Below are positions 18,169 to 40,025 of a stretch of DNA of 64,000 bases, one piece after another. The translations under genes and the position numbers were made by a program. The DNA is from Synechococcus sp. CBW1004 (lineage in GTDB: Bacteria > Cyanobacteriota > Cyanobacteriia > PCC-6307 > Cyanobiaceae). The stretch is from the NCBI RefSeq assembly GCF_015840715.1, contig NZ_CP060397.1, positions 2,872,686 through 2,936,685 on the forward strand. The letters run 5' to 3'. Every line of letters begins with the position of its first letter. Within the stretch, counting starts at the first letter, position 1. The notes beneath the pieces were generated by a model that made no database searches, had not been told where the DNA came from, and saw only the letters and a program-made list of their open reading frames with translations.

Positions 18169-18951
18169 ATGCTCCTCGATCTGCAAGGCAAGAAGGCCCT
18201 CGTCACCGGCATCGCCAACAACAAGTCGATCGCCTGGGGCATCGCCCAGCAGCTGCATGCGGCCGGCGCCGAGCTGGGCGTCACCTACCTGCCCGATGAG
18301 AAGGGGCGCTTCGAGAGCAAGGTGCGCGAGCTCACCGCGCCGCTCGCCCCCACCCTGTTCGAGCCCCTGAACGTGCAGGAGCCGGCCCAGATCGAGGCGG
18401 TGTTCAGCACGGTGAAGGAGCAGTGGGGCTCGATCGACGTGCTGGTGCACTGCCTGGCCTTCGCCGGCAAGGACGAGCTGATTGGCGACTACAGCGCCAT
18501 CAGCCCTGAGGGCTTCGCCCGGGCGCTGGAGGTGAGCGCCTATTCGCTGGCGCCCCTGTGCCGCTGGGCCAAGCCCCTGTTCAATGCCGGCGGCAGCGTA
18601 ATCACCCTCAGCTACCTGGGCGCTGAGCGGGCCATCCCCAACTACAACGTGATGGGCGTGGCCAAGGCGGCCCTGGAGGCGTCGGTGCGCTACCTGGCCG
18701 CCGAGCTGGGCCCCGAGAAGCAGGTGCGCGTGAACGCGATCAGCGCCGGCCCGATCCGCACACTCGCAAGCAGCGCCATCGGCGGCATCCTCGACATGAT
18801 CCACAACGTGGAGGCCAAGGCCCCCCTGCAGCGCACCGTGACCCAGGAGGAGGTGGGCAGCACCGCCGCCTTCCTGGCCAGCCCGCTGGCCTCCGGCATC
18901 ACCGGCCAGGTGATCTACGTGGATGCCGGCTACTGCATCACGGGGATGTGA
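18169..18951 (+). CDS. fabI: Enoyl-[acyl-carrier-protein] reductase (NADH)
   Basis: FabI performs the last reduction in each fatty-acid elongation cycle. The 260-aa sequence starts with the FabI-type SDR nucleotide motif LVTGIANNKSIAWGIA (about residues 9-26). It carries the catalytic Y-x6-K as YNVMGVAK (about 159-166) and the C-terminal NDIxG-equivalent AGPIRTLAS and GQVIYVDAGY. The stop at 18951 lies inside the end of the convergent NRPS gene, so the two coding regions overlap by 22 bases tail to tail. Housekeeping gene; not part of the peptide cluster. Confidence 0.96.
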   Translation: MLLDLQGKKALVTGIANNKSIAWGIAQQLHAAGAELGVTYLPDEKGRFESKVRELTAPLAPTLFEPLNVQEPAQIEAVFSTVKEQWGSIDVLVHCLAFAGKDELIGDYSAISPEGFARALEVSAYSLAPLCRWAKPLFNAGGSVITLSYLGAERAIPNYNVMGVAKAALEASVRYLAAELGPEKQVRVNAISAGPIRTLASSAIGGILDMIHNVEAKAPLQRTVTQEEVGSTAAFLASPLASGITGQVIYVDAGYCITGM

Positions 18952-24900: not shown

Positions 24901-26384
24901 GCTGAAAAGAGGTCTGTGGCGTAGGTGATGGATCCATTGAGGCCTTGATCGGCGGAGCGGCGCAGATAGAAGGACAGATCCAGCTTGGAGGATGTGCCGC
25001 TGGTGGAGACCTGCTCAACCTCAAGGCCATCGAGGTTGCTGAGCGAGGCGGGCGGCAGCTCGATCAGCTGCAGCATCACCTGCACCAGTGGATTGCGGCT
25101 GGTGTCGCGCTCGAGGTTGAGGGCCTCCACCATCTGCTCGAACGGCAACTCCTGGTGGTCATACGCCCCGATCGATCGCTCCCTCACCTGTGCCAGCAGC
25201 TCCCGGAAGCTCTGGCCGGCCTGAAAACGGGTACGCACCGGCAGGGTGTTGATGAAAAACCCGATCAGCGGCTCGAGATCGGGATGGTTGCGGCCCCAGA
25301 TGGGCACCCCGATCGCAACGTCGTCCTGGCGGCTGTAGCGGTGCAGCAGCAGCGCCACCACCGCCAGCAGCCCCATCTGCAGCGTCGCCCCCTCGCTGCG
25401 GCAGAGCTCCTCGAAGGGCGCCAGCAGCTCCGCATCGATCTGGAACGACACCCTGCCGCCCAGATGGGAGGGCAGGGCCGGACGGGGGCGATCCGCCGGC
25501 AGCTCCAGCGGCTCCAGGCCCTCGAGCTCCTCAAGCCAGTACTCGCTCAGCTCCTCGAGACACTCCCCACTCAGCCGCTGCCGCTGCCAGGCCGCATAGT
25601 CCTGGTAGTGCACAAGCAGCTGCGGCAGCCCGGGGGTTCGGCCCGCGCGATGGGCGTTGTAGAGCTCCGTCAGATCACGGGCAAGAACAGAATGCGACCA
25701 CCCGTCGGAGGCGATGTGGTGGTGGTTCACCAGCAGGACATGCTCCTGGGGAGACACCTGGAGCAGTCGCGCACGCAGCAGCAGTCCGGAAGTCAGATCG
25801 AAGGGCGTGCAGCGCTCGTGCTCCAGCCACTCCTCGATCACCCGCTCGCAATAGCGATCACCAAGGGGTTCGGCTGACAGGCAGAAGGTAGCCGGGGGAT
25901 GAAGGATCTGCAGCACCTCGCTCCCCTCCAGCCGGAAGGAGGTGCGCAGGGTGGGATGGCGCTCGATCAGGGAGGAGAGGGCGCGGGCCAGGGCGGGAAT
26001 GTCCAGCTCCCCCCGCAGCCGCCACAGAGCGGGCATGTGGTAGGCCGTGAGGTCGGGCTCCAGCTGATGCAGGAACCAGAGGCGAGCCTGGGCGTGGGAA
26101 GCGGGAAAGACCTGGCGGCCTTCCTGAACATCAACGCAGAGAGGCTGTGCCCGGGGGATCCTGCCGCCGCCTGCTCGCGCAGCCGGAATCGTGGTTGGCT
26201 GATCCTCTCTGCTGCCCAGCAGGCTCAATAGCTCGGTTTTGCGGAGCTTGATGCATTCACGCAGATCCGGGCTCAACTTTTCGAGCGGACCTTTGATGAC
26301 AAGATCATGACCCTTGGCTTGCATGGAAAGCCCCAGTTGCTCAACATGCGCCAGGAGTTCCGTGGCGGAGTCAGGGGTGTCCAT
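18930..26384 (-). CDS. Nonribosomal peptide synthetase: TubC docking-C-A-T-C-A-T-TE
   Basis: A 2484-aa two-module terminal synthetase. Residues 1-55 resemble a TubC N-terminal docking domain, so it probably receives a chain from another protein. C1 (about 90-520) and C2 (about 1165-1600) both carry HHIASDGWS. A1 (about 550-1060) and A2 (about 1630-2110) carry TSGTTGTPK and TSGSTGTPKG. Carrier serines lie in GGHSLAAS (about 1095) and GGHSLAAA (about 2148). The thioesterase (about 2200-2470) has GYSAGG, LDTHA and ENHHDF. Manual specificity codes: A1 D-N-R-A-V-A-S-L-A-K (unusual, with FGATE for YGPTE); A2 D-A-F-W-L-G-G-T-F-K, one residue from a valine code. The A1 core is AT-rich compared with its flanks. 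The ATG at 26384 was chosen because it begins the docking domain. Confidence 0.95.
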   Translation of the reverse strand: MDTPDSATELLAHVEQLGLSMQAKGHDLVIKGPLEKLSPDLRECIKLRKTELLSLLGSREDQPTTIPAARAGGGRIPRAQPLCVDVQEGRQVFPASHAQARLWFLHQLEPDLTAYHMPALWRLRGELDIPALARALSSLIERHPTLRTSFRLEGSEVLQILHPPATFCLSAEPLGDRYCERVIEEWLEHERCTPFDLTSGLLLRARLLQVSPQEHVLLVNHHHIASDGWSHSVLARDLTELYNAHRAGRTPGLPQLLVHYQDYAAWQRQRLSGECLEELSEYWLEELEGLEPLELPADRPRPALPSHLGGRVSFQIDAELLAPFEELCRSEGATLQMGLLAVVALLLHRYSRQDDVAIGVPIWGRNHPDLEPLIGFFINTLPVRTRFQAGQSFRELLAQVRERSIGAYDHQELPFEQMVEALNLERDTSRNPLVQVMLQLIELPPASLSNLDGLEVEQVSTSGTSSKLDLSFYLRRSADQGLNGSITYATDLFSAERIQRLSEHLLTLLAAALQSPDAPADSLTLLPQTERQLIESWQHGPTIDVPDLCVHQLFEQQVERTPDAIALIFEDQQLSYQELNSRANQLAHHLIDLGVGPDVIVAVCLERSIELIVSLLAILKAGGAYQPLPINDPSPRVQTFLDRSGSNLILLSDRQAESLTGAIAAESSLVLTPDLLNAKSKDSNPGLICDPANLAYVLSTSGTTGTPKCVEVDHKAIVNRCISYPQVWDIDNQSRVLAQSEFWVDNSIREWLLPLSCGACVVLVSDQQQKDPVLLIALARKKNCSHLAATPSRLSTLLDRDLLGLATVTAGGEQLSPWLAEQIKEASARRLIHSFGATETCLACAFFDVEIKAGNRAESQAEKGIPLGKPIPNTSLHVLDPIGHPCPIGVPGELHIGGAGLARGYLNNPELTAEKFIPDPFSTDPSARLYKSGDLASWNPDGTLAFHGRIDQQIKLRGFRIEPGEIEANLLAHPGVAQAVVLLRRDAPANPRLIAYWVAQNPDAHALASDRQSSDQLRSFLAQRLPDYMVPSAFVALEALPLTTNGKLDRKALPAPSFAGALDQRVEPSTDLERQLHAIWAEVLGHSDFGITDNFFAIGGHSLAASRLVSRIDQALGFSPPLAALFQNPSIAGLSPLLSESAAADHDRSAPAAIPTAQPLAGDWPEGCQVFPASYAQSRLWFLHQLQPDLTAYHLPAFWQLKGELNLNALSQALSALIERHPTLRTSFQLHGSEVLQLLHPPAPLQLEVEPLGDRDLNTVIQNWQQQEASTPFDLTSGLLLRARLLQVAADEHVLLINYHHIASDGWSRSILSRDLTALYNAHRNGQPAQLQPLNVLYQDYAVWQRQRLSGPHLQNLHDYWIPQLTGLEPLQLPTDHPRPATPSHQGESLSFWIEPALLAPLEELCRSEGATLQMGLLALLALLLHRYSRQDDLAIGIPIWGRNHPDFESLIGFIVNTLPIRTHFSKDLSFRELLAQVKTTSINAYDHQELPFEQMVEALNLERDTSRNPLVQVMLQLIELPPASLSNLDGLEVETLRSSLNASRFDLEFFLRRDQSGGIKTTLVYATDLFCGDRIQRLSEHLLTLLAAALQSPDAPADLLTLLPESERQLIESWQHGPTIDVPDLCVHQLFEQQVERTPNAIALIFEDQQLSYQELNSRANQLAHHLIDLGVGPDVIVAVCLERSIELIVSLLAILKAGGAYLPLDPDWPQERHTLLLHASGCAGLITADGVQLLSKPAAALSTPTLRPLAYISYTSGSTGTPKGVAIEHQAILRLVDPINGFHLGDGAAVLQLAPVAFDAATFEIWGPLLHGGTLVLAPAGTPSLADLAACLHHHRITTLWLTAGLFHAMVDAELESLAGVPQVLAGGDVLHPASVRRLLAASPPGHTLINGYGPTENTTFTCCQQLGSDTPLTMAEVPIGTPIANTTVRVLDPAGHPCPIGIPGELHIGGAGLARGYLNNPELTAEAFIPDPFSDDPAARLYKSGDLCSWNPDGTLAFHGRIDQQIKLRGFRIEPGEIEANLLAHPGVAQAAVILRRDDPANPQLIAYWVAQPTTADRPSAEQLRSFLAQRLPNLMVPSAFVALEALPLTTNGKLDRKALPAPSFAGDLKQRVAPCTDLERQLHAIWADVLGQADFGITDNFWVVGGHSLAAAGLVARIGEQLGRSIPVEAIFRFPTISEQANWLLQPSLPSSSQSPGHLVTLQPMGPRPPLHVVHGWGGRVGGFTHLARALAPHRPVLGLQASADGSPPQGASVTQLADAYAAEILASHKGGPIHLLGYSAGGWYAYAVAAALLERKAPLGLLAILDTHATARVHRRLGMTLFSQMLRARFLPTLHGILSPPVGQSRWLYVLNRLRTANARAAQYLHVRVPGPQVIKRHLQGIDPPAQEPFIQLLAQGYRPPRLPLMVHLFAPKMHLPALRRLWQFYAIAGVHSTPLFENHHDFYRPELATQLAQALEATLQCMEQSPSEPSPVHIPVMQ
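21291..21660. repeat. Near-identical NRPS repeat, copy A (module 2 C/A junction)
   Basis: About 370 bases covering the end of the C domain and the first A-domain motifs of module 2. It is nearly identical to 24525-24894 in module 1, with only scattered differences. Such similarity far exceeds normal divergence between modules and suggests recent duplication or gene conversion. Confidence 0.85.
23745..24524 (-). other. AT-rich A-domain core of NRPS module 1 (probable specificity swap)
   Basis: About 260 codons between AGGAY (start of the core) and DPIGHPCPIG (end) are visibly AT-richer and use different codons from either flank. The flanks are almost identical to those of module 2 while this core is not alignable to it at the DNA level. 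The core keeps A-domain motifs but with unusual forms (TPKCVEV, FGATE). Confidence 0.65.
24525..24894. repeat. Near-identical NRPS repeat, copy B (module 1 C/A junction)
   Basis: Partner of 21291-21660. The identity stops abruptly at about 24524, exactly where the AT-rich A-domain core begins, which marks a likely recombination boundary. Confidence 0.85.
25193..25340. repeat. 148-base identical NRPS repeat, copy A
   Basis: By eye, all 148 bases are identical to 31741-31888, in the C domain of the other synthetase gene. Both code for the C-domain stretch around GRNHPDLEPLIGFFINTLPV. Confidence 0.9.
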
Positions 26385-26992
26385 GCCGGCTGCCTGAAGG
26401 CTCCCTTGGTGACCCAATGCCGGCTTGAGAAGGCTTTTACGGTGATCACTTTACCGTAAGCACGAGCAAACTCCTGGATGAATCCCGCACCGCCGATGCG
26501 GGTACTCCACCCACGCAAAGGTTGTCGGGGCAGGCCGACATGGCCGCCAATGGCGGGGAGAAAGAAAGAGAGCTCGACTCTCCGTTGATTGCACTGGAAT
26601 CAACGGTGCCTGAGCCATTGCGTTGTCTTCACTGGATCGCCTGACTGGAATGCATACCCAAGGCAGCAGCCCCAGAACCATCCTCGCTGCCATGGGCGCC
26701 GAAGAACCCTTCAGAGGGAGGCATGTCATCCCTCAGCCCTGCTCAGCAGGGGACTCCTGCCACTTACTTTCTCGCAGGGAAGGAACATCCGCCCGGATAA
26801 ATGATGGTCTGAGCTCGATGAGCAAGATCCATTCCCCTACGAATGCAGGCTTACAAGAAAAGTGATTGCCTGAATCGCTCAGAGATCTCGTCGCCTGAGG
26901 GATCATCCAAAAGCATGGCGGGGCTCTCGAATCGAGATCAGTGGCTCCGAAAGTGGTATGTTTGGAAATAGGGAGCTTGTTCAATCTTTTTC
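26385..26992. other. Divergent intergenic region between NRPS and methyltransferase
   Basis: About 600 bases should contain the promoters of the leftward NRPS and the rightward methyltransferase. It is AT-richer than the housekeeping DNA. Small inverted repeats are visible, for example CCCTGCTCAGCAGGG near 26742. I find no convincing coding frame and no transposase remnant. Confidence 0.45.
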
Positions 26993-27849: not shown

Positions 27850-29361
27850 TCATCTCCAAAGCAGATAGCGCAGACGGCCTCTCAATCCGGCTTTGACAAC
27901 ATGATTGAACCTGCACACGGGAATTTTGTTTAAGATCGCACGAGCTTCCTGAGGCTTGCTACCAGGTCCACGCAGTCGGAACTGGGTGGCCTGGGTTGGT
28001 CCGTAGACCATCCGCAGCCATAGCCTTGGCTCAAGGAAAAATGAGCGGAGCAGGGGAGGTTCGCATCCGATCAGATTTGCCATGCTGTCCATGTAATTGT
28101 GGTAGTCGACAAGATTCCTCATCCGTTCGGCGTTGTGGCCAAATTGCGAAAGGTAACTGGCTGCATCCGCATCGATTGTGGTGCGTATCACATCCTGTTC
28201 CGGAAGCCGAAGCTTGCCACTCGTGAGCAGCGCGAAATAGCGGGCCTGCATCTCCATGATTGGGAACTGGCTGCCGAAGCCAGGCCGGGCAGCACCGATC
28301 CAGGCCAGCGAAGAGCCCTCGTCTGGATCCAGCATGTGCTTGAACAGTCTGCGCGGGTCGGCGTCCTGTAATGGCGCAGGCAGAAATGGTGTATGACCTC
28401 TGTATCCTGTGCAGAACAGTACAAGGTCGATATCGTCCAGCCACAGTCCATCGCTGTGGCAAAGACGACGCCCACCATGGTCCACATCTGTGATTTCCCC
28501 GATCACCTGACAACCGTGGTGGACGATGGCTTCCGGCAGGGAAAAATTCTTCGTGCCAAAGGTGCTCCAGATTCCGTAGGGACCGGAGATCCGTCGATTG
28601 AGAACAGCCGCCGCTGTGTTCACAGGATCGTTCTCAAGTTGCTCATGCGCAAGAATCAGCTCTGACAGTGTCGATCCAAAATCGCGGGGTAATCCGTAGA
28701 GCCCACGATGGGTGGCGATGTCAGCAGCCATGCTGCCGCGGTGGCGTGGCAGGATCCACCCCGGGGCTCGCCGCAGGCTCACCCAGGTGCGCTGGGCGAC
28801 CCGGGCGATTTCCAGGGTGATGTCAGCGGCCGATTCGCCGCCACCCACCACCAGCACCCTGCGTCCAGCGAGGGAGCGGGGGTTTCGATAATCCTTCGAA
28901 TGCATCCATTCCACTTCCGTCAGTCGCGAAGCCCAGTCGGGCAGATTCGCAAAACGGTTGTTGCCTGTCGCCACCACAAGGCGCTGGCAGTGAATGGTCT
29001 CTCCCCCAGCCAGATCCAGACGCCAGCCGTGTCCGTCCCTATGGGCACGCATCACGTCCACGTCAAAGCGCAGGTGATCAAGCACCCCGAACCGTGTCGC
29101 GTACTCCCGCCAGTAGGCCACAACCTCATCCTTCGACCAGAAATGGTGCTCCTTCCCGTCTCCGATCCAGTGATCGGAGAACATGCTGAAGACGCTGGAG
29201 GATGTCAGGGTAAGACTGTCGTAGGAGCCGGCGAAAATACCACCAAGGGAATGACTCCTCTCAAAACAGACAACATCGGAAAGACCATGCTCAATCAATT
29301 CCTTTGTGGCCACGATTCCTCCAGGGCCAGCTCCAACAACCACGCAGGAATAACTGCTCAT
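27850..29361 (-). CDS. Flavin-containing monooxygenase (tailoring enzyme)
   Basis: A 503-aa class B flavin monooxygenase. It shows an N-terminal FAD motif VVVGAGPGGIVATKELI (about 6-22) and FERSHSLGGIF, an FMO-type fingerprint reading EWMHSKDY (about 151-158), and an NADPH motif VLVVGGGESAAD (about 169-180). The ATG-like C-terminal motif FCTGYRGHTPFLP is near 315. Such enzymes N-, S- or Baeyer-Villiger oxidise small molecules. The gene lies 112 bases downstream of the C-A-T-C-A-T synthetase on the same strand and is probably cotranscribed. Its target could be a residue side chain or the released peptide. Confidence 0.88.
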   Translation of the reverse strand: MSSYSCVVVGAGPGGIVATKELIEHGLSDVVCFERSHSLGGIFAGSYDSLTLTSSSVFSMFSDHWIGDGKEHHFWSKDEVVAYWREYATRFGVLDHLRFDVDVMRAHRDGHGWRLDLAGGETIHCQRLVVATGNNRFANLPDWASRLTEVEWMHSKDYRNPRSLAGRRVLVVGGGESAADITLEIARVAQRTWVSLRRAPGWILPRHRGSMAADIATHRGLYGLPRDFGSTLSELILAHEQLENDPVNTAAAVLNRRISGPYGIWSTFGTKNFSLPEAIVHHGCQVIGEITDVDHGGRRLCHSDGLWLDDIDLVLFCTGYRGHTPFLPAPLQDADPRRLFKHMLDPDEGSSLAWIGAARPGFGSQFPIMEMQARYFALLTSGKLRLPEQDVIRTTIDADAASYLSQFGHNAERMRNLVDYHNYMDSMANLIGCEPPLLRSFFLEPRLWLRMVYGPTQATQFRLRGPGSKPQEARAILNKIPVCRFNHVVKAGLRGRLRYLLWR

Positions 29362-29473: not shown

Positions 29474-32400
29474 TCAGATCACCAGCACTCCATGTTCAGG
29501 AGCACGTGCCAGGTAGTCAGCAAGCGACTGAATGGTCGAGGACGAGAAAAGATCCGAGACTCGACATTGGCATTCTGCCATTTGGTTGATGCGGTTGGCG
29601 AGGCGGGCGGCGGCCAGCGAATGGCCACCGATGTCAAAGAAGTCGTCTGTGATCCCGAAGTCACCATGGCCAAGGACCTCAGACCAGATCGCATGGAGCT
29701 GCCGCTGCAGATCAGTGGTGGGGGCAATCCATTCCTGGGACACACTGCCGACCGATGCAGCGGGCAGTGCCCTGCGATTGAGCTTGCCATTGGCAGTCAG
29801 TGGCAGGTCCTCCAGTTCCATGAAGGCCGCCGGTACCATATAGCCTGGCAGCATATCCATCAGGAAGGAACGGAGATCGGCAGGGGTGGCAGAGTTTTCG
29901 CCGCCGTTGGAGGAATCGGGAACCCAGTAAGCGATCAGGCGCGGATTGGCCGGGTCCCTCTCCTCCAGAATCACGACGGCCTGACCGACTGCAGGATGCT
30001 GCAGAAGGATGGACTCGATTTCACCGGGTTCGATGCGGTGACCGCGAAGCTTGATTTGCTGATCGATGCGGCCAAGAAACTGGATCTTGCCCTTGTTCGT
30101 CCAGATGCCGACATCGCCGGTACGGAGCAGGCGGGCCCCCTCGCCATCACCGAACGGATCAGGAAGAAACCTTCCCTCTTCTTCCTTGGGAAGCTGCACA
30201 TAGCCGCTGGCGACTCCCGCTCCTCCAATGTGGATCTCTCCTGGAACGCCAGGAGGCAGCAGGTTCAGCTCCTCGTCGAGGATGTAGACCGCCGCCCCTG
30301 GGATCGGAGCGCCGATGCAGCTGCGGCGTGAGGCGAAGGTGGCGATCTCCTCTCGCTTCAACAGAAGTGCCGTGGAAAATCCCGCTGCTTCAGTGAGGCC
30401 ATAGACGACGAACAGGTGGCTCAGTTCGGGAAACTCCTGGAGTCTGCTGCAGAGATCGGCTGGAATCGGCTCGGCGCCCATTCCGATCACCTTGATATTC
30501 CGCGGCACCAATCCCTCAATAATCATTTCCCGGATTGATGTCGTTGTACCGGAAACCGCCGTGATCATGCCGGCATAGGGTGAGCTGGCAAGCTCTGAGA
30601 TCGTGTCGAGCATGAGCAGGCATCCACCCGCGGCAAGCACAGTGAAAATCTGCGCGACGCTGGCATCAAAAGCGATGGATCCGTAGAAGGGAATCAGGCG
30701 GCAGGTCCAGGGCGGCGTGAGTTGATCGAGGCGGCAATGCAGCATCTGCAGTGCAGAGCGGTGGCTCACTTCCACTCCCTTTGGCCTGCCGGTGGAACCG
30801 GAAGTGTGAATAAAGTAGGCAGGTTGATCATCACTGATCGAGGGGAGCGTGATTTCGGCAAGTTTCCCTTCCAGAGGATCAACGTAGCCTGGTGTGGGGT
30901 CGTTGGAATCGTTCAGGGAAAAGAGAAGCACCCTGCTCGGCCTGAGGCGTTCCGCCATGGGCGGGGAGGTGATCACCAGCTCCACGACTGCATTATCGAA
31001 AAGCATCGCGATCCGTTCATCCGGATAGGCAGGATCCATGGGCACATAGCAACCTCCTGCCGCGAGCACAGCCAGCATAGCGACGGGAAGCTCCGGTCGT
31101 CTCCCCAGCAGAATCCCCACCCGCTGGCCGGGTCTTACTCCCTGCTCCACAAGCCTTCGCGCCAGCCTGTCGACATGGCGCGCCAGATCTCCATGACTCA
31201 GCACGGAATCCTGGTGCCTCACCGCGGGAGCCGCCGGTGCCTGGTGTGAACCCTGCGCAGCGAACTGGTGCACCAGAACGCCCGCCGCTGGACGGTCCGA
31301 CGGATGGCTCCAGGTCAACAGCTGCTCCATCTCTTCCTTCGGCAGAAGGTTGAGTCGGCTCGCCGGCAGATCCGGTTCGGTGCCCATCCCCTCAACCAGC
31401 GAGCCGAGCAGGGTGACCAGGTGCCTGCTGAGCCGCTGGATGCGATCGGAGTCGAACAGATCGGTGGCGAAGGTGATGGTTCCGCTGATGCCCTGGTGAG
31501 AATTTCTCTGGAGCTGGAAACCGAGATCGAGCTTGGAGGATTCGTTGCTGATGCCAATCTGCTGCACCTGGAGGCCCGTAAGGCCCGTCAGCGCGGCCTC
31601 CGGCAGTTCAATGAGCTGAAACATCACCTGCACCAGGGGATTGCGGCTGGTGTCCCGCTCGACGTTGAGGGCCTCCACCATCCGCTCGAAGGGCAGCTCC
31701 TGGTGCTCGTACGCACCGATCGACCTGTCCCTCACCTGCGCCAGCAGCTCCCGGAAGCTCTGGCCGGCCTGAAAACGGGTACGCACCGGCAGGGTGTTGA
31801 TGAAAAACCCGATCAGCGGCTCGAGATCGGGATGGTTGCGGCCCCAGATGGGCACCCCGATCGCAACGTCGTCCTGGCGGCTGTAGCGATGCAGCAGCAG
31901 CGTCACCACGGCCAGCAGGCCCATCTGCAGCGTCGCCCCCTCGCTGCGGCAGAGCTCCTCGAACGGAGCCAGGAGGTCCGCACCGACCTGGAACGACACC
32001 CTCCCGCCGCGGTGCGAGGGCAGCGCCGGACGGGAGTGGTCGCTGGGCAGCTCCAGGGGCGCCAGGCCCTCCAGCTGCCCAAGCCAGTACTCCCTGAGCT
32101 TCTGCAGGCGCTCACCGCTCAGACGCTGCCGCTGCCAGGCCGCGTAGTCCTGGTACTGCACCCGCAGCGGCGGCAGCCCGGGGGTTCGGCCCGCGCGATG
32201 GGCGTTGTACAGCTCCACCAGATCGCGACCCAGAACCGAACGCGACCAGCCGTCCGAGGCGATGTGGTGGTGGTTCACCAGCAGCACATGCTCCTGCTCT
32301 CCGACCACCAGCAGCCGTGCACGCACCAGAACCCCTGAGGTCAGATCAAAAGGCGTGCAGCCCTCCTCCTCCAGCCAACCCACGATCACCTCCTCTTCTT

Positions 32401-35400
32401 CCCGCTCCCCCAGGAACTCGACCGCCAGAGCGAAGGCCTCCGGCGGATGGATGAGCTGCACCACCTCGTTCCCTTCCAGGCAGAACGACGTGCGCAGCGT
32501 CGGGTGACGCTCGATCAGATCCGCCAGCGCCCGCTCCAGCGCAGCACTGTTGAGATCTCCCCGCAACCGCCACAGTGCGGGTAGGTGGTAGGCCGTTAGC
32601 TCCGGCTCCAGCTGCTGAAGAAACCACAGCCGCGCCTGGGCGTGGGAGGCGGGATAAGCCTCGGCACCCCTTGGCCGTTCACCGGGCAGCGATTCGGCGA
32701 CAGGAAAGGCTGTCTGAAGTGCGGACGTCACGCCATCCGCATCTGGGGCAACGACCAGAGGGGCCAGCCCCGCAATGGTGGGGTTCTGGAACAGCGCCGC
32801 CAGTGGAGGGGCACTGCCAAGCGCCTGCTCGATCCGGGAAACCAGCCTCACTGCCGCCAGCGAATGCCCCCCGATGGCAAAGAAGTCATCGGTGATCCCG
32901 AAGTCGGAATGACCGAGCACCTCAGCCCAGAGGGCATGGATCTGCCGCTCCAGCTCTGTGCCGGGTTCCACCCGCCGCTCCAGGTCGCCGGCGAACGACG
33001 GCTCCGGCAGCGCCCTGCGGTCCAGCTTGCCGTTGCTCGTCAGCGGCAGGTCCTTCAGTTCCACCAGGGCCGCCGGAACCATGAAGTCGGGCAGTCGTTC
33101 GGCCAGGAAGCCCCGCAGCTCCTCCGCTGAGACCGTGACTCCAGTCACGCCGACCCAGTAGCCGACCAGGCAAGGATTGGACGGGTCGTCGCTGCGCAGC
33201 ACCACCACCGCCTGCGCCACAGCCGGGTGGTCCAGCAGGTTCGCCTCGATCTCGCCGGGCTCGATGCGGAAGCCGCGCAGCTTGATCTGCTGATCGATGC
33301 GGCCATGGAAGGCCAGCGTCCCGTCCGGATTCCAGCTCGCCAGATCACCGGATTTGTAGAGGCGGGCGGTGGGATCGGCGGAGAAGGGATCGGGGATGAA
33401 CCTGTCGGCGGTGAGCCCGGGGTTGTTGAGGTACCCGTGCGCCAGAGTCGGGCCGCCGATGTGCAGCTCACCGGGGATCCCGATCGGGCACGGAAGACCA
33501 TTGGGTTCAAGGATCCATGCTCGAGCATGAGGAATCGGTCTCCCCAAAGGAACCCTACTCTGGAATCGCCAAGAATCACTCAGGTCTTGACAGGCAACTT
33601 CAACAGTGGTTTCTGTTGGGCCGTAGGTATTCAAGAGGCGTGTATGATTTGCCTGTAAAGGCTCCCAGAGTCGTAAATGATGCAAATGCATCGCCTCTCC
33701 ACCAACGATCAAGAGCCTTAGGTCGTGGGGAATAATGAAATTGCTCTGGGCACATTCGCGAACTAGCCCTGCCCAGAAAGCTGTCGGAAGGCTCGCGATT
33801 GTAATCTTATATTCTTCTAGGAAATTGAGAAATCTTTTCGTGCTGCCAGTTGCTTCTTCGTTGCAGCAGACGATTGCCGCACCAGCTGAAAGTGCAGGAA
33901 AGATCTCCTCGATGCAGGCGTCAAAAGTTAGCGAAGAAAATTGCAGAACCCGATCGACGCTGGTGATGTTGAATTCGTGAGTCGCCCAGTTCGAGAACGT
34001 GTCGAGTGCGGTTCGATCAATGAGCACGCCTTTGGGCTTGCCTGTAGAGCCTGATGTGAAAATAATGTACGCAATGCTGTTGTCTACAAGGCTGTTGTCT
34101 GCAAGGCTGTTGTCTACAAGGCTGTTTGTCTGGCCATAGGCTTCACCCAGTGTCTCCGTTTCAATCCGCAGCTCTGAGTCTTCTGAGAGTGATAAATAGA
34201 GTGTTGTCCTCTCGGTCAGATCCTTACGGACCGTTGAGGAGTGCAATGCCTTTGTCGATATAATTGGGGCATGGCCGATTTCACTGAGAATATTTCTGAT
34301 TCGATTGACGGGTAGCCTTGAGTCGATAACCACAAACGCCTTGCAGGCAAATAAGCATGAGACCATGCAGAGTATCGCCTCCAGCCTTGGATCCGCCAGC
34401 AGGATGACGACATGATCAGATGGGGTGCAAAGAGTTGCAATGTGCCTCGATAGGGTGTCAGTAAGCTCCAGTAACTTCTTGTAGCTCAATCGCCTGACTC
34501 CATCCGATAGGGCGGTGTTGTCGGGGTATAGGTGGGCTAAGTCTTCAATTTTTTTGGTAACCGCACTCTGCTGTGTAGATGATGTCTTGCCAGCGCGGAG
34601 ATCATGATCGTCGATCGACTGATTGCTATTTCTTTCGCCTCCATCTGGTGCTGAGACGGCAGCACTCCAGTTTACGATCTGCTCCTCTTCAGAGTCAGTA
34701 AGCAAAGAGTGAGATGCAATTCTCGCATCAGGCGACTTGACGATGGATTTGAGCAAAACCAACAGGTGTGCGGCGAGTCGGTCGATGCGATCAACGCTGA
34801 ATAGATCGGACGCATAGATGATGAAACCGCGTAGTCCTTGTCTTGCAATACGGTGAAATGAGAAGGCAAGATCAAATAGCGAGGAAGTGCTTGCAGTGAT
34901 TAATTCTGCTTTAAGTCCGTCAAGATTCTCGAGAGAAGGATAAGATATTTCCGTCAGCTGGAGCATCACCTGATAGAAGGGGTTGCGACTTGTATCGCGT
35001 TCCATCATGAGGGCCTGGACGATCTGTTCAAATGGGAGCTCCTGGCGGTCGTAAGCGGCAAGAGACGTGTCTTTGATCTGAGCCAAGAGCTGCCGAAAAG
35101 ACTGCTCCGCCTCAAACTGCGTGCGGATCGGTAATGTGTTGATGAAGAATCCGATCAGCGATTCAAGGGCGGGATTATTGCGGCTCCAGATCGGTACTCC
35201 GATCGCAAAATCATTCTGACGGCTGTAACGATGCAGCAACAGCGCCACTGCCGCCAGCAGCCCCATCTGCAATGTCGCTCCCCCCTTCCGGCACAGCTCC
35301 TCGAAGGGCTCCAGAATCTCGGCCTCGATCTGGAAGGTGACCCTGCCGCCCCTGTGGGAGGGTACGGCCGGTCTGGGTTGATCGCTGGGCAGCACGAGGG

Positions 35401-36124
35401 GATCGAGCTCTCTGAGCTGCGAGATCCAGTACTCCTTCAGTTCCTGCAGGCGTGGGCCGCCGAGCCGTTGCTGCTGCCAGGCGGCGAAGTCCTGGTAGTG
35501 AACAGTGAGCGGTGGGAGCTGAGGAGGGCGTCTGGAATGGAGGGCGTTGTACAGCTCCACCAGATCGCGAGCCAGAACCGAACGCGACCAGCCATCGGAG
35601 GCGATGTGGTGGTGGTTGATCAGCAGCAGATGCTTCTCGGGAGCAACCCGGAGCAGACGGGACCGCAGCAGCACTCCTGAGGCCAGATCGAAGGGCGTAC
35701 TGCGTTCCTGCTCCAGCCACCCCTCAATCACCTGGTCGGTATCGCGATCACCGAGGGGTTCAACCAGCAGAGTCACGTCACCTGGAGGGTGGATGATCTG
35801 CAGAACTTCGTTCCCCTGCAGTTGGAAGGCGGTGCGCAGGGTGGGATGCCGCTCGATCAGCGCAGCCAGCGCCTGCTCAAGAGCCCGCACATCCAGCTCC
35901 CCCTGCAGCCGCCACAGCAGCGGCAGGTGGTAAGCGGTGAGGCCTGGCTCCAGTTGCTGCAGAAACCACAGTCGCGCCTGTGCGTAGGAGGCGGCAAACG
36001 CCTGGCAGCCCCGTGGCCACTCACCGGGCAGGGGCCTGGCAGTTGGGATACTGTAAGTTGTGCTTTCGGAGCGGAGAGTCCTGAGCCTGGCGACGCGGCT
36101 GGCCAGCGAGTTCGCTGTGTTCAT
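29474..36124 (-). CDS. Nonribosomal peptide synthetase: C-A-T-C-A-T
   Basis: A 2216-aa two-module synthetase. C1 (about 40-480) and C2 (about 1155-1600) keep HHIASDGWS. A1 (about 535-1050) carries FTSGSTGKPKG and NTYGPTETT; A2 (about 1620-2120) carries HTSGSTGRPKG and VYGLTEAA. Carrier serines are in GGHSLAAV (about 1082) and GGHSLAAA (about 2161). There is no thioesterase or epimerase, so the chain must pass to another protein. Manual specificity codes: A1 D-A-E-S-I-G-T-V-E-K, close to the lysine-type code; A2 D-A-A-S-I-M-V-G-F-K, not recognised, with Gln replacing the usual Glu after position 239. The A1 core is AT-rich. The ATG at 36124 overlaps the upstream lyase stop by four bases. Confidence 0.95.
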   Translation of the reverse strand: MNTANSLASRVARLRTLRSESTTYSIPTARPLPGEWPRGCQAFAASYAQARLWFLQQLEPGLTAYHLPLLWRLQGELDVRALEQALAALIERHPTLRTAFQLQGNEVLQIIHPPGDVTLLVEPLGDRDTDQVIEGWLEQERSTPFDLASGVLLRSRLLRVAPEKHLLLINHHHIASDGWSRSVLARDLVELYNALHSRRPPQLPPLTVHYQDFAAWQQQRLGGPRLQELKEYWISQLRELDPLVLPSDQPRPAVPSHRGGRVTFQIEAEILEPFEELCRKGGATLQMGLLAAVALLLHRYSRQNDFAIGVPIWSRNNPALESLIGFFINTLPIRTQFEAEQSFRQLLAQIKDTSLAAYDRQELPFEQIVQALMMERDTSRNPFYQVMLQLTEISYPSLENLDGLKAELITASTSSLFDLAFSFHRIARQGLRGFIIYASDLFSVDRIDRLAAHLLVLLKSIVKSPDARIASHSLLTDSEEEQIVNWSAAVSAPDGGERNSNQSIDDHDLRAGKTSSTQQSAVTKKIEDLAHLYPDNTALSDGVRRLSYKKLLELTDTLSRHIATLCTPSDHVVILLADPRLEAILCMVSCLFACKAFVVIDSRLPVNRIRNILSEIGHAPIISTKALHSSTVRKDLTERTTLYLSLSEDSELRIETETLGEAYGQTNSLVDNSLADNSLVDNSIAYIIFTSGSTGKPKGVLIDRTALDTFSNWATHEFNITSVDRVLQFSSLTFDACIEEIFPALSAGAAIVCCNEEATGSTKRFLNFLEEYKITIASLPTAFWAGLVRECAQSNFIIPHDLRLLIVGGEAMHLHHLRLWEPLQANHTRLLNTYGPTETTVEVACQDLSDSWRFQSRVPLGRPIPHARAWILEPNGLPCPIGIPGELHIGGPTLAHGYLNNPGLTADRFIPDPFSADPTARLYKSGDLASWNPDGTLAFHGRIDQQIKLRGFRIEPGEIEANLLDHPAVAQAVVVLRSDDPSNPCLVGYWVGVTGVTVSAEELRGFLAERLPDFMVPAALVELKDLPLTSNGKLDRRALPEPSFAGDLERRVEPGTELERQIHALWAEVLGHSDFGITDDFFAIGGHSLAAVRLVSRIEQALGSAPPLAALFQNPTIAGLAPLVVAPDADGVTSALQTAFPVAESLPGERPRGAEAYPASHAQARLWFLQQLEPELTAYHLPALWRLRGDLNSAALERALADLIERHPTLRTSFCLEGNEVVQLIHPPEAFALAVEFLGEREEEEVIVGWLEEEGCTPFDLTSGVLVRARLLVVGEQEHVLLVNHHHIASDGWSRSVLGRDLVELYNAHRAGRTPGLPPLRVQYQDYAAWQRQRLSGERLQKLREYWLGQLEGLAPLELPSDHSRPALPSHRGGRVSFQVGADLLAPFEELCRSEGATLQMGLLAVVTLLLHRYSRQDDVAIGVPIWGRNHPDLEPLIGFFINTLPVRTRFQAGQSFRELLAQVRDRSIGAYEHQELPFERMVEALNVERDTSRNPLVQVMFQLIELPEAALTGLTGLQVQQIGISNESSKLDLGFQLQRNSHQGISGTITFATDLFDSDRIQRLSRHLVTLLGSLVEGMGTEPDLPASRLNLLPKEEMEQLLTWSHPSDRPAAGVLVHQFAAQGSHQAPAAPAVRHQDSVLSHGDLARHVDRLARRLVEQGVRPGQRVGILLGRRPELPVAMLAVLAAGGCYVPMDPAYPDERIAMLFDNAVVELVITSPPMAERLRPSRVLLFSLNDSNDPTPGYVDPLEGKLAEITLPSISDDQPAYFIHTSGSTGRPKGVEVSHRSALQMLHCRLDQLTPPWTCRLIPFYGSIAFDASVAQIFTVLAAGGCLLMLDTISELASSPYAGMITAVSGTTTSIREMIIEGLVPRNIKVIGMGAEPIPADLCSRLQEFPELSHLFVVYGLTEAAGFSTALLLKREEIATFASRRSCIGAPIPGAAVYILDEELNLLPPGVPGEIHIGGAGVASGYVQLPKEEEGRFLPDPFGDGEGARLLRTGDVGIWTNKGKIQFLGRIDQQIKLRGHRIEPGEIESILLQHPAVGQAVVILEERDPANPRLIAYWVPDSSNGGENSATPADLRSFLMDMLPGYMVPAAFMELEDLPLTANGKLNRRALPAASVGSVSQEWIAPTTDLQRQLHAIWSEVLGHGDFGITDDFFDIGGHSLAAARLANRINQMAECQCRVSDLFSSSTIQSLADYLARAPEHGVLVI
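31741..31888. repeat. 148-base identical NRPS repeat, copy B
   Basis: Identical to 25193-25340 in the other synthetase gene. Similarity continues with scattered differences on both sides. Confidence 0.9.
33510..34980 (-). other. AT-rich C-end/A-core segment of NRPS module 1
   Basis: The DNA here is clearly AT-richer than the sequence on either side, which returns to high GC at the GELHIGG motif (left) and at the C-domain core (right). It covers the end of C1 and the whole specificity-determining part of A1, consistent with a transferred substrate-specificity segment. Confidence 0.6.
34076..34120. repeat. Three 15-base tandem repeats inside an A domain
   Basis: Three consecutive copies of GCTGTTGTCTACAAG (the middle copy has one change) plus a partial fourth. 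On the coding strand they give five-residue units of the type SLVDN/SLADN just before the A-domain motif FTSGSTGKPKG. Being in frame, they lengthen a surface loop rather than break the gene. Confidence 0.85.
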
Positions 36125-36984
36125 GATCCGCCCGCCCTCCTCAGATTGGCTTCCAGCACCGCGTTGCAATGGGAGAGCTCCCGCGGCGCTGCCAGAGCAA
36201 CGGAGAGTTCCGCTTCCTCATGCTTCAGACCTTCCAGGGCCTGCTCAATGGCCCCATGGGCAGCGAACAGACAAGGGGTGCTGTAGATCAGTCCCTGCAC
36301 GCCGTGATCGGCAAGATCCCGGCGGCTGCAGGCCGGCACTTTGCCACCACCGATCACGTTGCAGAACAACGGACAGGATATCGCTGCCCGCAGCCTCGGA
36401 AAGAGAGCCAGATCCTTGATGCCATCGGCCAGCACCGCATCACAGCCGGCCTGCTCGAACGCCTGGATGCGCTCAAGGATCTCGTCTGGATCACTGGCAT
36501 CCGTGCGGGCCACCACCAGCAGGGAAGTGCATTCCCGCAGCACGGCTCCGAGCTTGTTCAGGTAGTCCTGCAGGGGGAGCAGCCGTTTGCCGTCGAGGTG
36601 GCCGCAGCGGCGCGGCCTGGCCTGATCCTCGAGAACCACACCGGAGGCTCCACAGCGCTCCAGGGTGCGGGCGACATGGCTGGCCACGGCGGGGTCCCCG
36701 AAGCCATCGTCGATGTCCACCAGCAGGTGGTGATGGGGCAGAAGAGCCCGCAGGCGACTGGTGCTGGTGGTGAGATCACCCCAGCCGACGAAGCCGATGT
36801 CGGGAAGCCCGTACATGCTGGCGGCAAGCCCGAAGCCACTGAGGAACATAGCTTCGAAGTGTTCGGCCGCCAGGGAGGCGCTGAACAGGTCGTAGATCCC
36901 CACGAACGGCAGCACTCGCTGCTCGGCTTGAGCTGTCTGAAGGGCTAGGCGCAGCTGGGCGCCAGGGGGGAGTGCCTCGATCAT
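36121..36984 (-). CDS. Isocitrate lyase/PEP mutase superfamily enzyme
   Basis: A 287-aa (beta/alpha)8 enzyme of the superfamily containing methylisocitrate lyase, oxaloacetate hydrolase and phosphoenolpyruvate mutase. It has the metal-binding strand LVDIDDGFGDP (about 88-98) and the gating loop VVLEDQARPRRCGHLDGKRL (about 115-135). The loop Cys-Gly-His favours a lyase or hydrolase; the PEP-mutase loop (D-K-x3-K-x-N-S) is absent. It overlaps both neighbours by four bases: its start overlaps the stop of the adenylation-carrier gene and its stop overlaps the start of the synthetase. Such tight coupling implies a direct role in making the peptide, perhaps supplying a small carboxylic acid starter; that is inference. 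Confidence 0.85.
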   Translation of the reverse strand: MIEALPPGAQLRLALQTAQAEQRVLPFVGIYDLFSASLAAEHFEAMFLSGFGLAASMYGLPDIGFVGWGDLTTSTSRLRALLPHHHLLVDIDDGFGDPAVASHVARTLERCGASGVVLEDQARPRRCGHLDGKRLLPLQDYLNKLGAVLRECTSLLVVARTDASDPDEILERIQAFEQAGCDAVLADGIKDLALFPRLRAAISCPLFCNVIGGGKVPACSRRDLADHGVQGLIYSTPCLFAAHGAIEQALEGLKHEEAELSVALAAPRELSHCNAVLEANLRRAGGS

Positions 36985-38795
36985 GGCAATTCCTCTAGCT
37001 GCGCGAGGGTTTCATCCAGGAGCTGATCAAGCTTCTCCGCAAGGGTCCGCACGGTTGGGACGGTGAACAGCAGCGTAGGCTGAAGATCAAGACTGAGTTG
37101 CTCGGCCAAGCGGGTGATGACCCGTGTGCCGGCAAGGGAATCACCGCCAATCTGGAAGAAGTTGGCTTCCCGGCTCGGTAGCTCTTTTAGCTCAAGCACT
37201 TCGCTGATCACCGAAGCCACAAGCTCCTCCAGCTCGCCGACCGCCGGCTCCTCTGCGGGACGGAGCGCATCGGCCAAGCGCTCCGCCAGGCCAATGCGCT
37301 GGAGTTTGCCGGTGACGCCGCGGGGGAGCTCCTCAAGAATCAAGATGCGGGAGGGCACCTCATGGGGGGCCAGAACTGAGAAGGCGTGCTGTCGCAGCTG
37401 CTGTTCCTCAAGGTTCAAGCCGGCCCGAAGCACAACGGCGGCGGCGAGGTCCTCTCCCAACGTGGGATGGGGCACGGCAAAAGCCAGGGCCTGATCCACA
37501 CCCGGATGGAGAAGCAGTGCTTCATCCACACGGCGAGGGATCACTTTTTCGCCGCCGCGGTTGATCATTTCCTTGAGACGCCCCGTTAGGAACAGGCGCC
37601 CCTCCTGATCCAGATAACCTTCATCACCGGTGAGGAACCACGACTCCCCATTGAATGCGGTGACCCAACCGCTCAGATCAGCGGCTTCATAGCCGGCAGT
37701 CACGTTGGGACCACGGATGGCGACTTCGCCGCTCTCGCCGGCTGGCAGTGGACGGTGCTCGGGCCCGAGCACCATCACCTCGGGCCCGACGGCGGGGCCG
37801 ACACTGCCCGGCAATGGCGTGGGTCCTTCGCCGGGCAACCGGTTGCTGCAGATCTGGTGGGCGGCTTCCGTCATGCCGTAGGCCTCGAGCACCGGCACCC
37901 CGAAATGGTGCTCCAGCCGCTGCTGCAACACCGGAGACAAGGGCGATGAGGAGGAGCGTAGGAACCGTAGGTGATTGAATCCTGGTGGTTCACCCTGCTG
38001 GTTGGAGTTGTTGAGCAGGGCCTGCAGAAGGGTTGGTACGGCTGATAGGTATGTCGCCTGAAGGTGATGGATTGCAGCCAGCAATTGTTCCGGATCGCTG
38101 CTGCGGCAGCAGATCACGCTGCCACCGGCAAGCAGTGGCGCGAGCAGGGAAGCCACGATGCCGTGAATGTGAAACAGCGGCATGGCGGCTATGGAGCGAT
38201 CGGTTGGCGAGAGCTTCAGGGTGGTGGCGATGTTGCCGGCGGAGGTGAGAAGGTTGGCGTGGCTGAGGGGTACCACCTTGGGGCGAGAGGTGGTGCCTGA
38301 TGTCTGCAACAACAGGGCTAGATCACCTGATTCAGGCGTAACGGCAATGCCGCTCAATTCGTCTGGCACCATCAGAGATGGCAGGCTCAGAACAGGAAGG
38401 CCCAGTTGGCCGGCGGCTTCAAGAAAAGTGGCGGGCGGATTCTCGTCCACCAGCACATGGGTCGCGCCAAGCCGTCTGAGGTCGTCGAGAATGATTGGAA
38501 GGGGGCTGGATGGCATCAATGGGGCCACGGCTGCCACCGCCATCGCGGCGAGGAGAGTGGCAGCCATGGCAGTGCCCGGTGTCATGACGAGAGCAAGGCG
38601 ATCATTGCGTTGCACCCCCTGGGAGCTCAGGGCGTTGGCAAGTGCATGAATCTGTGCCTGCAACTGTTCGCGCGTGGTGATCCGGCCGTCGGCATCCAGG
38701 AGGGCTGGCTGATGGCCAGCGGTCTCAATCCTGCTGGGCCACCACCAGGCATCGAGCAGGAATTCGACAGGGTGAACGACTGGATCGAGGCTCAT
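36981..38795 (-). CDS. Free-standing adenylation-carrier protein (acyl/oxalyl-CoA synthetase-like A domain plus PCP)
   Basis: A 604-aa ANL enzyme with C-terminal carrier domain. The A part resembles acyl-CoA synthetases of the Pcs60/AAE3 (oxalate-CoA ligase) type: LLQTSGTTSRPKVVPLSHAN (about 180-200), AMPLFHIHGIVASLLAPL, VLEAYGMTEAAHQICSN and GRLKEMINRGGEKVIP. These are more like CoA ligases than amino-acid A domains. The carrier serine lies in FFQIGGDSLAG (about 555). It is the first gene of a coupled operon with the lyase and synthetase, so it probably loads the starter. The ATG at 38795 is the likely start; earlier in-frame ATG codons exist at 38813 and 38855. A truncated paralogue lies just upstream. 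Confidence 0.9.
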   Translation of the reverse strand: MSLDPVVHPVEFLLDAWWWPSRIETAGHQPALLDADGRITTREQLQAQIHALANALSSQGVQRNDRLALVMTPGTAMAATLLAAMAVAAVAPLMPSSPLPIILDDLRRLGATHVLVDENPPATFLEAAGQLGLPVLSLPSLMVPDELSGIAVTPESGDLALLLQTSGTTSRPKVVPLSHANLLTSAGNIATTLKLSPTDRSIAAMPLFHIHGIVASLLAPLLAGGSVICCRSSDPEQLLAAIHHLQATYLSAVPTLLQALLNNSNQQGEPPGFNHLRFLRSSSSPLSPVLQQRLEHHFGVPVLEAYGMTEAAHQICSNRLPGEGPTPLPGSVGPAVGPEVMVLGPEHRPLPAGESGEVAIRGPNVTAGYEAADLSGWVTAFNGESWFLTGDEGYLDQEGRLFLTGRLKEMINRGGEKVIPRRVDEALLLHPGVDQALAFAVPHPTLGEDLAAAVVLRAGLNLEEQQLRQHAFSVLAPHEVPSRILILEELPRGVTGKLQRIGLAERLADALRPAEEPAVGELEELVASVISEVLELKELPSREANFFQIGGDSLAGTRVITRLAEQLSLDLQPTLLFTVPTVRTLAEKLDQLLDETLAQLEELP

Positions 38796-38888
38796 TGATT
38801 CCAAAACTCTCATGCTGTTTTGTCGGCGAAGACAGGTCTTTGCATATGTTGACAAGTGGACTCCCGATGGAGCGCAGGTTCCAGCGAC

Positions 38889-39345
38889 TCATCTCCCCAC
38901 CTCGAATTGCGCCAGAGCTTGATCGATCAGGGTCTCAAGCTGCTCGGACAGCGTGCGCACCGTTGGGGCGATGAACAGAAGCGTCGGCGGAAGATCAAGG
39001 CCGAGTTGAGCGCTCAGGCGTGTCATCACCTTTGTACCGAAGAGGGAATCGCCACCGAGCTGGAAGAAGTTGGCGTCCCGGGTGGGTGGTCTCTGGTTCA
39101 GCACCTCGCTGATCACAGAAGCCACGAGTTCCTCCACCTCCCCGACAGCGGGCTCTTCTGCAGCCGGTCCGAGAGCATCCTTCAGTCGCTCCGCCAGGTT
39201 GAATCGTTGCAGCTTGCCGGCGGCACCGCGGGGCAGCTTCTCGACAACAAGGATTCTCGTTGGAACTTCATGGGGCGCGAGAGCCGAGAAGGCATGGGAC
39301 CGCAGTTCCTGCTCGCTGAGCCTGGCACCGGCCTCAGACGAGCGG
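38889..39345 (-). pseudogene. Truncated second copy of the adenylation-carrier gene
   Basis: This open frame encodes only the end of an ANL domain (LSEQELRSHAFSALAPHEVP, then LPRGAAGKLQRFNLAERL) and a complete carrier domain with FFQLGGDSLFG, ending in 82 well-conserved residues. It aligns colinearly to the C-terminus of the intact neighbour, at roughly two-thirds identity by eye. Homology begins abruptly within the last bases of the vapC gene at about 39340, and there is no ATG start upstream. It is best read as a tandem duplicate whose first three quarters were lost when the vapBC pair arrived, although a free carrier protein from an internal GTG (39137) is possible. Confidence 0.75.
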
Positions 39346-39762
39346 GTTGATCAACCGCAGGCCCGGGAAGCGGCGAAAGTCGGCGTCACAGCTATGGACC
39401 GAGCCGCCGTGCTCGAGGGCCAGGGCGGCCAGGTGGGCATCCATGGTCAGATTGCCGGCGGTTCCGGCCTGGTCCAGAACCTCGGAGAGGATCTCCCAGT
39501 GCCGCGGTCCGGGCTCCAGCAGCAGCACGGTGGGGTGATCGAGCCAGGCCTGCGCTACCTCGATCGCCTGATGTGCGGTCAGCGCGTTGGGGAACAGCCG
39601 GGCATTGGTGCAGATCCGCATCACGGCAAGGATCACCACCCAACACAGAGCCAGGGGTTCCTCGCCAGACAGGCACTGCTCAAGCCATGACCTTGCCGCT
39701 GCGTGCTTGGGCATGTCGGCGTGCAGCGCATAGACCAGCAGGTTGGCGTCGACGACGATCAT
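39334..39762 (-). CDS. vapC: PIN-domain RNase toxin (VapC-like)
   Basis: A 142-aa PIN protein: [13 protein letters not shown] at the N-terminus supplies the first metal-ligand Asp, with MDAHLAALALEHG (about 105-117) and CDADFRRFPG (about 124-133) giving the others. It cleaves RNA when not bound by its antitoxin. It overlaps the upstream antitoxin gene by four bases. Its stop codon lies in the junction with the truncated adenylation-carrier copy, so the pair may have arrived at a recombination site. Confidence 0.9.
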   Translation of the reverse strand: MIVVDANLLVYALHADMPKHAAARSWLEQCLSGEEPLALCWVVILAVMRICTNARLFPNALTAHQAIEVAQAWLDHPTVLLLEPGPRHWEILSEVLDQAGTAGNLTMDAHLAALALEHGGSVHSCDADFRRFPGLRLINPLV

Positions 39763-40025
39763 TGGCCCTGCATCAACTGGGTCACGATCTCCTGGTCCTC
39801 CAGTTCGGCCGCCAAGGTGAGCGCTTTATCGAGATCGACAGGCCACTGGGGCTGGCCCATGGAGAAGGTGGGGCACACATAGCGGTGCCGCGCGGCCTCC
39901 ACAGGTTGCTGCAGTCCGGCCCGTAGGGTCTCGTTCACCACCTGCTTGAACGTCTTGCCGCTGTCGAGGGCTTTCTGGCGCAGCTGGCGCAGCAGGCCGT
40001 CGTCGATGGTCAGGGTGGTGCGCAT
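39759..40025 (-). CDS. vapB: Ribbon-helix-helix antitoxin (VapB-like)
   Basis: An 88-aa protein starting [20 protein letters not shown], a classic ribbon-helix-helix DNA-binding N-terminus, continuing [17 protein letters not shown]. The C-terminal half would bind and inhibit VapC. The ATG at 40025 was preferred to a start at 40046 because the motif begins there. Three TGGCATCA boxes (one across the start codon, two just upstream) look like its autoregulatory operator. Confidence 0.9.

Follow-up and report, generated by a model that had tools for sequence, protein, structure and literature searches.

The window studied here is a 64,000-nucleotide stretch of Synechococcus sp. CBW1004 (contig NZ_CP060397.1, positions 2,872,686 to 2,936,685), from a genome of 3.67 Mb on one contig. 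Its minus strand carries five genes in the order ligase–carrier, lyase, nonribosomal peptide synthetase (NRPS) 1, flavin monooxygenase and NRPS 2, which we tentatively read as a route to an oxalate-capped peptide. The ligase–carrier (36981..38795; defined by its open reading frame (ORF), Pfam and PDB ranking) fuses an oxalyl-CoA-synthetase-like adenylation domain to a peptidyl carrier protein (PCP) domain. Its ORF (36981–38855, 624 residues) extends as far as a TTG at position 38855; the in-frame ATG at 38795 is the likely start. The lyase (36121..36984, 287 residues) is placed by ORF, Pfam, alignment and tree in a distinct subfamily of the isocitrate lyase/PEP mutase superfamily. These two frames match the span 36121–38795 of a first-pass annotation of the same DNA. 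Both lyase junctions, ligase stop/lyase start and lyase stop/NRPS 1 start (36124), are ATGA overlaps. NRPS 1 (29474..36124; Pfam and the junction, its ATG overlapping the lyase stop) is built from condensation (C), adenylation (A) and carrier domains as C-A-PCP-C-A-PCP. Pfam further identifies the FMO-like monooxygenase between the two NRPS genes (27850..29361) and NRPS 2 (18930..26417), which reads docking-C-A-PCP-C-A-PCP-thioesterase (TE); its TubC_N-like docking part scores 25.6 bits, slightly below the cut-off of 26.

The ligase–carrier comprises AMP-binding, AMP-binding_C and PP-binding domains, the last (residues 545–607, 37035..37223 by Pfam) containing the carrier motif GGDSL. Searching the PDB (best 60 of 125 sequences considered) gave four top sequences that are all named oxalyl-CoA synthetase or oxalate–CoA ligase (298, 293, 290 and 208 bits), presumably the grass pea, yeast and Arabidopsis enzymes; a malonyl-CoA synthetase (189 bits) and the first NRPS (182 bits) come next. 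An amino-acid A domain was rejected as the identity of the ligase on this ranking, where NRPS proteins fall below both the oxalate and the malonate ligases. The ranking bears out the first-pass description of a Pcs60/AAE3-like enzyme distinct from amino-acid A domains, and the FHIHG and NRGGEK motifs reported there (the latter as NRGGEKV) are present in the translation; a normal amino-acid pocket was looked for and not seen. In alignments, Ser303 (37947..37949) and His333 (within MTEAAH, 37857..37859) coincide with Ser289 and His319 of Arabidopsis AAE3, which we take to be the residues touching oxalate; both pocket residues are thus kept. They are likewise kept in all nine other cyanobacterial ligases aligned and in the one Methylobacterium ligase found.

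Relatives of the ligase also stand beside informative genes. In a sample of 386 cyanobacterial genomes, 15 (own included) gave hits with E values of at most 1e-70, and neighbourhoods were read for nine of the 14 others; judged by ORF length, eight of these ligases stand alone, and the ninth forms one protein with a carrier and a thioesterase. At a locus of another cyanobacterium (L135, 9347–14076), an oxalate-type ligase–PCP–thioesterase protein is followed by sulfotransferase and DegT aminotransferase genes. A PanE/ApbA-family gene adjoins the ligase in four of the nine loci (a raw count: three by Pfam, the fourth, L133, by its N terminus only). Methylobacterium PanE is described, in the portion of PMC9485241 available to us, as an oxalyl-CoA reductase that reversibly converts oxalyl-CoA to glyoxylate; the neighbours belong to this family and, if they share its activity, would point to oxalate as the acid.

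The lyase matches Pfam PEP_mutase and ICL and appears as a full ICL/PEPM-fold enzyme. It scores 151.7 bits against the 2-methylisocitrate lyase model TIGR02317 and 54.6 bits against the PEP mutase model TIGR02320, not reaching the latter's cut-off of 319.55 bits. The alignment places the catalytic loop at R125-R-C-G-H129 (36598..36612), and both Pfam and sequence confirm membership, as first annotated, in the superfamily of oxaloacetate hydrolase (OAH), isocitrate lyase and methylisocitrate lyase (MICL) with a Cys-Gly-His loop. A PEP mutase/phosphonate route was rejected on the low model score and the retained lyase-type CGH loop, and the genuine PEP mutase that would have overturned the earlier assignment was not seen; the tree described below was built without PEP mutases.

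A pattern scan for the subfamily with two short peptides recovered at least 60 loci. We set 62 subfamily rows (60 loci, the window and L003, a duplicate of L036) against 32 homologues from the phylum that lie outside the subfamily. Between 60 and all 62 of the subfamily rows retain the DxD Asp pair and the CGH loop, one His being lost in L086. Among the changes that set the subfamily apart, DTG becomes DDG (61/62 rows, 0/32 others) and Pro/Ala becomes Ser at position 235 (again 61/62 against 0/32), the sole row without this Ser, L092, having a sequence that looks frame-disturbed. Ser235 (36280..36282) aligns with a Ser common to fungal OAH and petal death protein (PDP). When 3lye (OAH), 1zlp (PDP), 3fa3 (DMML), 4iqd (CPPM) and three MICLs were aligned with seven subfamily rows, position 235 was the only column with Ser in both OAH and PDP and in none of the other five; all seven subfamily rows have Ser there. 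Petal death protein cleaves oxaloacetate. For OAH, an active-site Ser is given as the mark of the oxalate-forming enzyme in PMC3256194, there as Ser281, and in PMC8224569.

A lyase tree of 34 rows (16 of the subfamily, with one fungal OAH sequence) unites the subfamily in a single clade with 100/100 support; its branch is long and lies apart from fungal OAH/DMML, PDP and MICL. The tree tool warned of long branches meeting; 1zlp and the subfamily are both on long branches. An AlphaFold model of the lyase (pLDDT 76.6, pTM 0.80) falls below 50 in parts of the catalytic loop and C-terminal region. Comparing folds gave Z 30 to a PrpB and Z 28 to OAH; since MICL, CPPM, DMML, OAH and PDP all lie within about 3 Z units, the fold chooses no substrate.

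Lyase, ligase–carrier and NRPS occur together in four further genomes of two phyla: CZS25K (L035), the metagenome-assembled genome (MAG) LacPavin (L036), the Cyanobium ATX 6A2 (L037) and a Thioploca MAG (L042). Because it recurs in this way, the grouping is beyond chance. The ligase–carrier is present in all four NRPS-linked lyase loci that have upstream DNA; ATX 6A2 has two ligases upstream of the lyase, at distances of about 8 kb and about 1.4 kb. At a fifth, acidobacterial locus (L040) an NRPS is present and the lyase is cut off by the end of the contig; a search of the genome at E 1e-40 gave no ligase. Both pocket residues are kept in four of the six other NRPS-linked ligases (CZS25K, LacPavin, the first ATX 6A2 copy and Thioploca). 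In the second ATX 6A2 ligase the pocket His is replaced by Ser, and the sixth, a CZS25K ligase of fused type, has diverged at the position of the Ser.

Among named organisms, the lyase search placed Cyanobium nearest (96% and 58%). The subfamily is found in three of 42 genomes of the source genus, own included, and in the 386-genome sample it occurs in the own genome only, the rest matching at 36% or less; the cassette is rare within Cyanobacteria. Going by record titles, Streptomyces accounts for 51 of the 60 scanned loci, there as a lone gene. In the available DNA surrounding the other 55 lyases, all actinobacterial by title (nine at loci shorter than 20 kb), we found no ligase or NRPS like those of the window, even at E 1e-4. 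Plasmid searches returned five Streptomycetaceae records with a lyase above 50% identity; of four inspected, three carry no annotation, and the annotated one, from Kitasatospora, lists no NRPS or ligase of the window type in its 30.8 kb. Directly downstream of the actinobacterial lyase lies a short ORF (L098, 15810–16277; also L099), matching in 43 of the 55 loci; the two may form a two-gene unit of unassigned role.

The sister clusters vary around the starter genes. CZS25K and the acidobacterium have the smallest version, one C-A-PCP-TE module followed by a phosphopantetheinyl transferase gene. At what we take to be the GrsA positions, the first-module amino-acid code of the window is like that of CZS25K, and that of LacPavin like that of the acidobacterium as far as read; the others differ, and the starter genes stay. 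In ATX 6A2, a thiamine pyrophosphate (TPP) enzyme gene overlaps a ligase–carrier gene by 4 bases. Its product's best PDB matches are oxalyl-CoA decarboxylase (OXC) and 2-hydroxyacyl-CoA lyase; it scores 219.6 bits against the NCBIfam OXC model (cut-off 557) and higher, 248.4 bits, against an acetolactate synthase model, also below cut-off. Such an enzyme would fit an oxalyl thioester but could alter it. The His-to-Ser ligase–carrier of this cluster is adjoined by ComA-family (phosphosulfolactate synthase-like) and VOC genes (L037, 5608–6761 and 6781–8598); the coenzyme-M-like sulfonate route hinted at by the ComA-family gene was rejected, the source genome of the window having no ComA. On the strand opposite to the cluster, a MaoC-like dehydratase region is fused to an adenylation and a carrier domain (L037, 2184–5159, minus strand). 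Elsewhere in the CZS25K genome (L106, 10132–18094), an SDR gene, a gene for a short TPP enzyme that lacks its middle domain, and one encoding the fusion ligase-PCP-C-A-PCP-TE follow one another, all with 4-base overlaps, in what appears to be a second use of the oxalate-type ligase branch.

Selection was estimated as dN/dS by NG86; many other pairs had dS above 1 or were not computable. Between the window and LacPavin, dN/dS is 0.22 for both the lyase (0.145/0.670) and the ligase (0.322/1.487); for the lyase of the close window–CZS25K pair it is 0.52 (0.034/0.065). The LacPavin lyase (L003/L036) has an in-frame TAG, a sequencing error or early decay. Beside the CZS25K lyase, with its dS of 0.065, the ligase proteins are 65% identical with dS 1.30, and the ligase was therefore probably exchanged between strains, its pocket type unchanged. 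In the comparison of window positions 36121–38855 with L035, 5.5 kb of DNA that includes part of the ligase aligns at 90% nucleotide identity; set against the protein figures, this suggests an exchange boundary.

We propose the following scheme. The lyase would use water to cleave a small four-carbon acid, with oxaloacetate the likeliest candidate, into oxalate and acetate. The ligase would adenylate the oxalate and tether it, as an oxalyl thioester, to the carrier domain of the same protein. The first C domain of NRPS 1 would then acylate the amino group of the first amino acid with this oxalyl unit, and the resulting peptide would start with an N-oxalyl (oxamic acid) cap. The minimal CZS25K set (ligase–carrier, lyase and C-A-PCP-TE) would make an N-oxalyl amino acid. 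As a single reading, production by the lyase, loading by the ligase and capping of the peptide is the best available, held tentatively at a little under an even chance; that the ligase loads oxalate, summed over every reading that includes it, is likely. The earlier suggestion that the pair supplies and loads a small starter acid is supported by the co-inheritance of lyase and ligase–carrier with an NRPS in distant bacteria. The accompanying view that the specific acid cannot be deduced seems too cautious, because four lines suggest narrowing it to oxalate: the ligase pocket, the neighbours of its relatives, the OXC-like enzyme of ATX 6A2 and Ser235 of the lyase. The broader proposal, an oxalate-starting NRPS line with its own oxalate source in which a bacterial subfamily (Ser235, PRRCGH, DDG, ADG/VDG) would have evolved oxaloacetate hydrolysis independently of the fungal enzyme, is possible, if on the doubtful side.

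A substantial set of observations weighs against this scheme, most of them concerning the lyase. Each of the seven solved members in the alignment differs from it in the active site. The loop reads PRRCGH, the Lys two places before Cys (presumably the K121 place of PrpB) being replaced by Arg in 62/62 subfamily rows and 0/32 others, which have Lys in 32/32; the first-pass annotation made no mention of this change. Glu becomes Asp at what we take to be the E188 place of PrpB (62/62 rows, 0/32 others), and a further Glu is lost (Gly/Ala in 61 of 62 rows, Cys in the other, 0/32 in the comparison set). The curated TIGR02317 cut-off of 354.4 bits is not reached by the 151.7-bit lyase score, nor is the 650-bit cut-off of the FadD7 family model (NF004511) by the ligase (363.7 bits). 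The phylogenetic check that had been suggested against OAH and petal death proteins gave a divided answer in the approximately unbiased (AU) test: a joint clade with fungal OAH, represented by one sequence, is rejected (p-AU 0.001), one with OAH plus DMML is rejected weakly (p-AU 0.044) and one with PDP is allowed (p-AU 0.143). The Ser235 column probably corresponds to the published OAH Ser281. Within the stretches searched, the actinobacterial lyases stand without a similar ligase or NRPS, and therefore suggest another role for the lyase in those bacteria. Only the ATX 6A2 cluster showed the OXC-like and ComA-like genes: tblastn searches with the two enzymes gave no match in the window, L035, L036, L040 or L042, and within the own genome ComA is missing and the single TPP match is distant (30% identity). 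Because the lyase lies apart from fungal OAH and carries fixed active-site changes, we do not file it as an OAH; it may work like one, which would then be convergent.

In a rival scheme, the ligase loads oxalate drawn from metabolism and the lyase does another job, such as cleaving a substituted malate or oxaloacetate, so as to supply a different precursor or to clear a by-product. The long branch with its several fixed active-site changes and the 55 actinobacterial loci without a ligase favour it, as does the diverged CZS25K ligase–carrier homologue, which is preceded by SDR and TPP genes with no lyase noted in the stretch read; that genome's one subfamily hit at E 1e-50 lies elsewhere. However, Ser235 matches only the two oxalate-forming relatives (PDP by its generally known activity), and an oxalate-type ligase accompanies the lyase in 4/4 NRPS clusters with upstream DNA, so we consider this division of labour rather unlikely, if the strongest competitor. 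Use of a different small acid by both enzymes, with the lyase releasing pyruvate, glyoxylate, succinate or propionate for the ligase to load, gains from methylisocitrate lyases being closest to the lyase by overall score and malonyl-CoA synthetases being the next solved relatives of the ligase; it is unlikely, as the ligase pocket and the neighbours of its relatives fit oxalate and the lyase stays below the prpB model cut-off. Of a similarly low, marginally smaller probability is a carrier-bound oxalyl that serves as an intermediate, decarboxylated or extended by a TPP enzyme, or reduced, to leave a formyl, glyoxylyl or 2-hydroxyacyl group on the peptide. The OXC-related gene overlapping the ligase–carrier gene in ATX 6A2 and the short TPP enzyme preceding the fused ligase–NRPS in CZS25K are in keeping with it, but the window has no such enzyme by tblastn, the own genome's single TPP match is distant and the ATX 6A2 protein stays well below the OXC cut-off. 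That lyase and ligase form a decayed or chance pair without a joint role is highly improbable: a truncated second ligase copy beside a vapC-like gene and the TAG in the LacPavin lyase speak for it, but recurrence in distant genomes, ATGA coupling in the window and the window–LacPavin dN/dS of 0.22 oppose it.

Known systems resemble parts of the proposed oxalate route. The AAE3/Pcs60 oxalyl-CoA synthetases (6qjz, 5ie0, 8aff) are the best match of the ligase, which keeps their pocket Ser/His, FHxHG and NRGGEK; unlike them, it is carrier-fused, lies in an NRPS operon and would load a carrier rather than CoA. With fungal OAH (3lye, 3m0j and the oxalate-bound 3m0k) the lyase shares superfamily, fold, marker Ser, CGH loop and DxD Asp pair, but a joint clade is rejected, and the lyase has Arg for the loop Lys, Asp for Glu, DDG for DTG and Gly/Ala for NxxE. 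PrpB (1mum, 9hra) is closest overall by score and fold, yet MICLs have Pro (Cys in 3eoo) where the lyase has Ser235, and the lyase scores below their NCBIfam cut-off. Petal death protein (1zlp) shares the marker Ser, and a joint clade with it is not rejected, but it keeps the loop Lys. EntE, PchD and FAAL–carrier starters likewise use a dedicated ligase to load the carboxylic acid that starts a peptide; these pairs load aryl or fatty acids, whereas the window ligase belongs to the oxalate branch and is paired with a C–C lyase. In the dencichine (beta-ODAP) route of grass pea and engineered E. coli, AAE activates oxalate, which goes onto an amine, but through a BAHD acyltransferase and free oxalyl-CoA instead of a carrier and condensation domain. 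One designed E. coli dencichine route uses Oah for oxalate, then AAE, according to the part of PMC9485241 at hand.

Literature searches (titles and abstract starts of the best 6 to 15 matches in each) returned no description of an oxalyl starter or of PEP-mutase-family genes in NRPS clusters, and those on Cyanobium NRPS products and bacterial OAH returned none of such a starter. If the oxalate scheme is right, the smallest dicarboxylic acid would join the list of NRPS starters, the gene pair would offer a sequence marker by which to search for N-oxalyl peptides, and the lyases, including the lone genes of Streptomyces, would become candidates for a bacterial family of oxaloacetate hydrolases. 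N-oxalylglycine serves as a 2-oxoglutarate mimic (PMC9418262, in the part available to us), and N-oxalyl products could therefore be enzyme inhibitors.

Upstream of the intact ligase–carrier gene lies the remnant of a second one (38889..39335, minus strand), recognized by ORF, Pfam and alignment: the C-terminal 148 codons with a PP-binding domain, of which 82 residues run from a GTG at 39137, 69% identical to the intact copy. It is abutted by a VapC-like PIN toxin gene (39334–39762), with a small ORF that has no Pfam match upstream of that (39759–40046); the two look as if they had replaced the 5' part of the second ligase–carrier gene.

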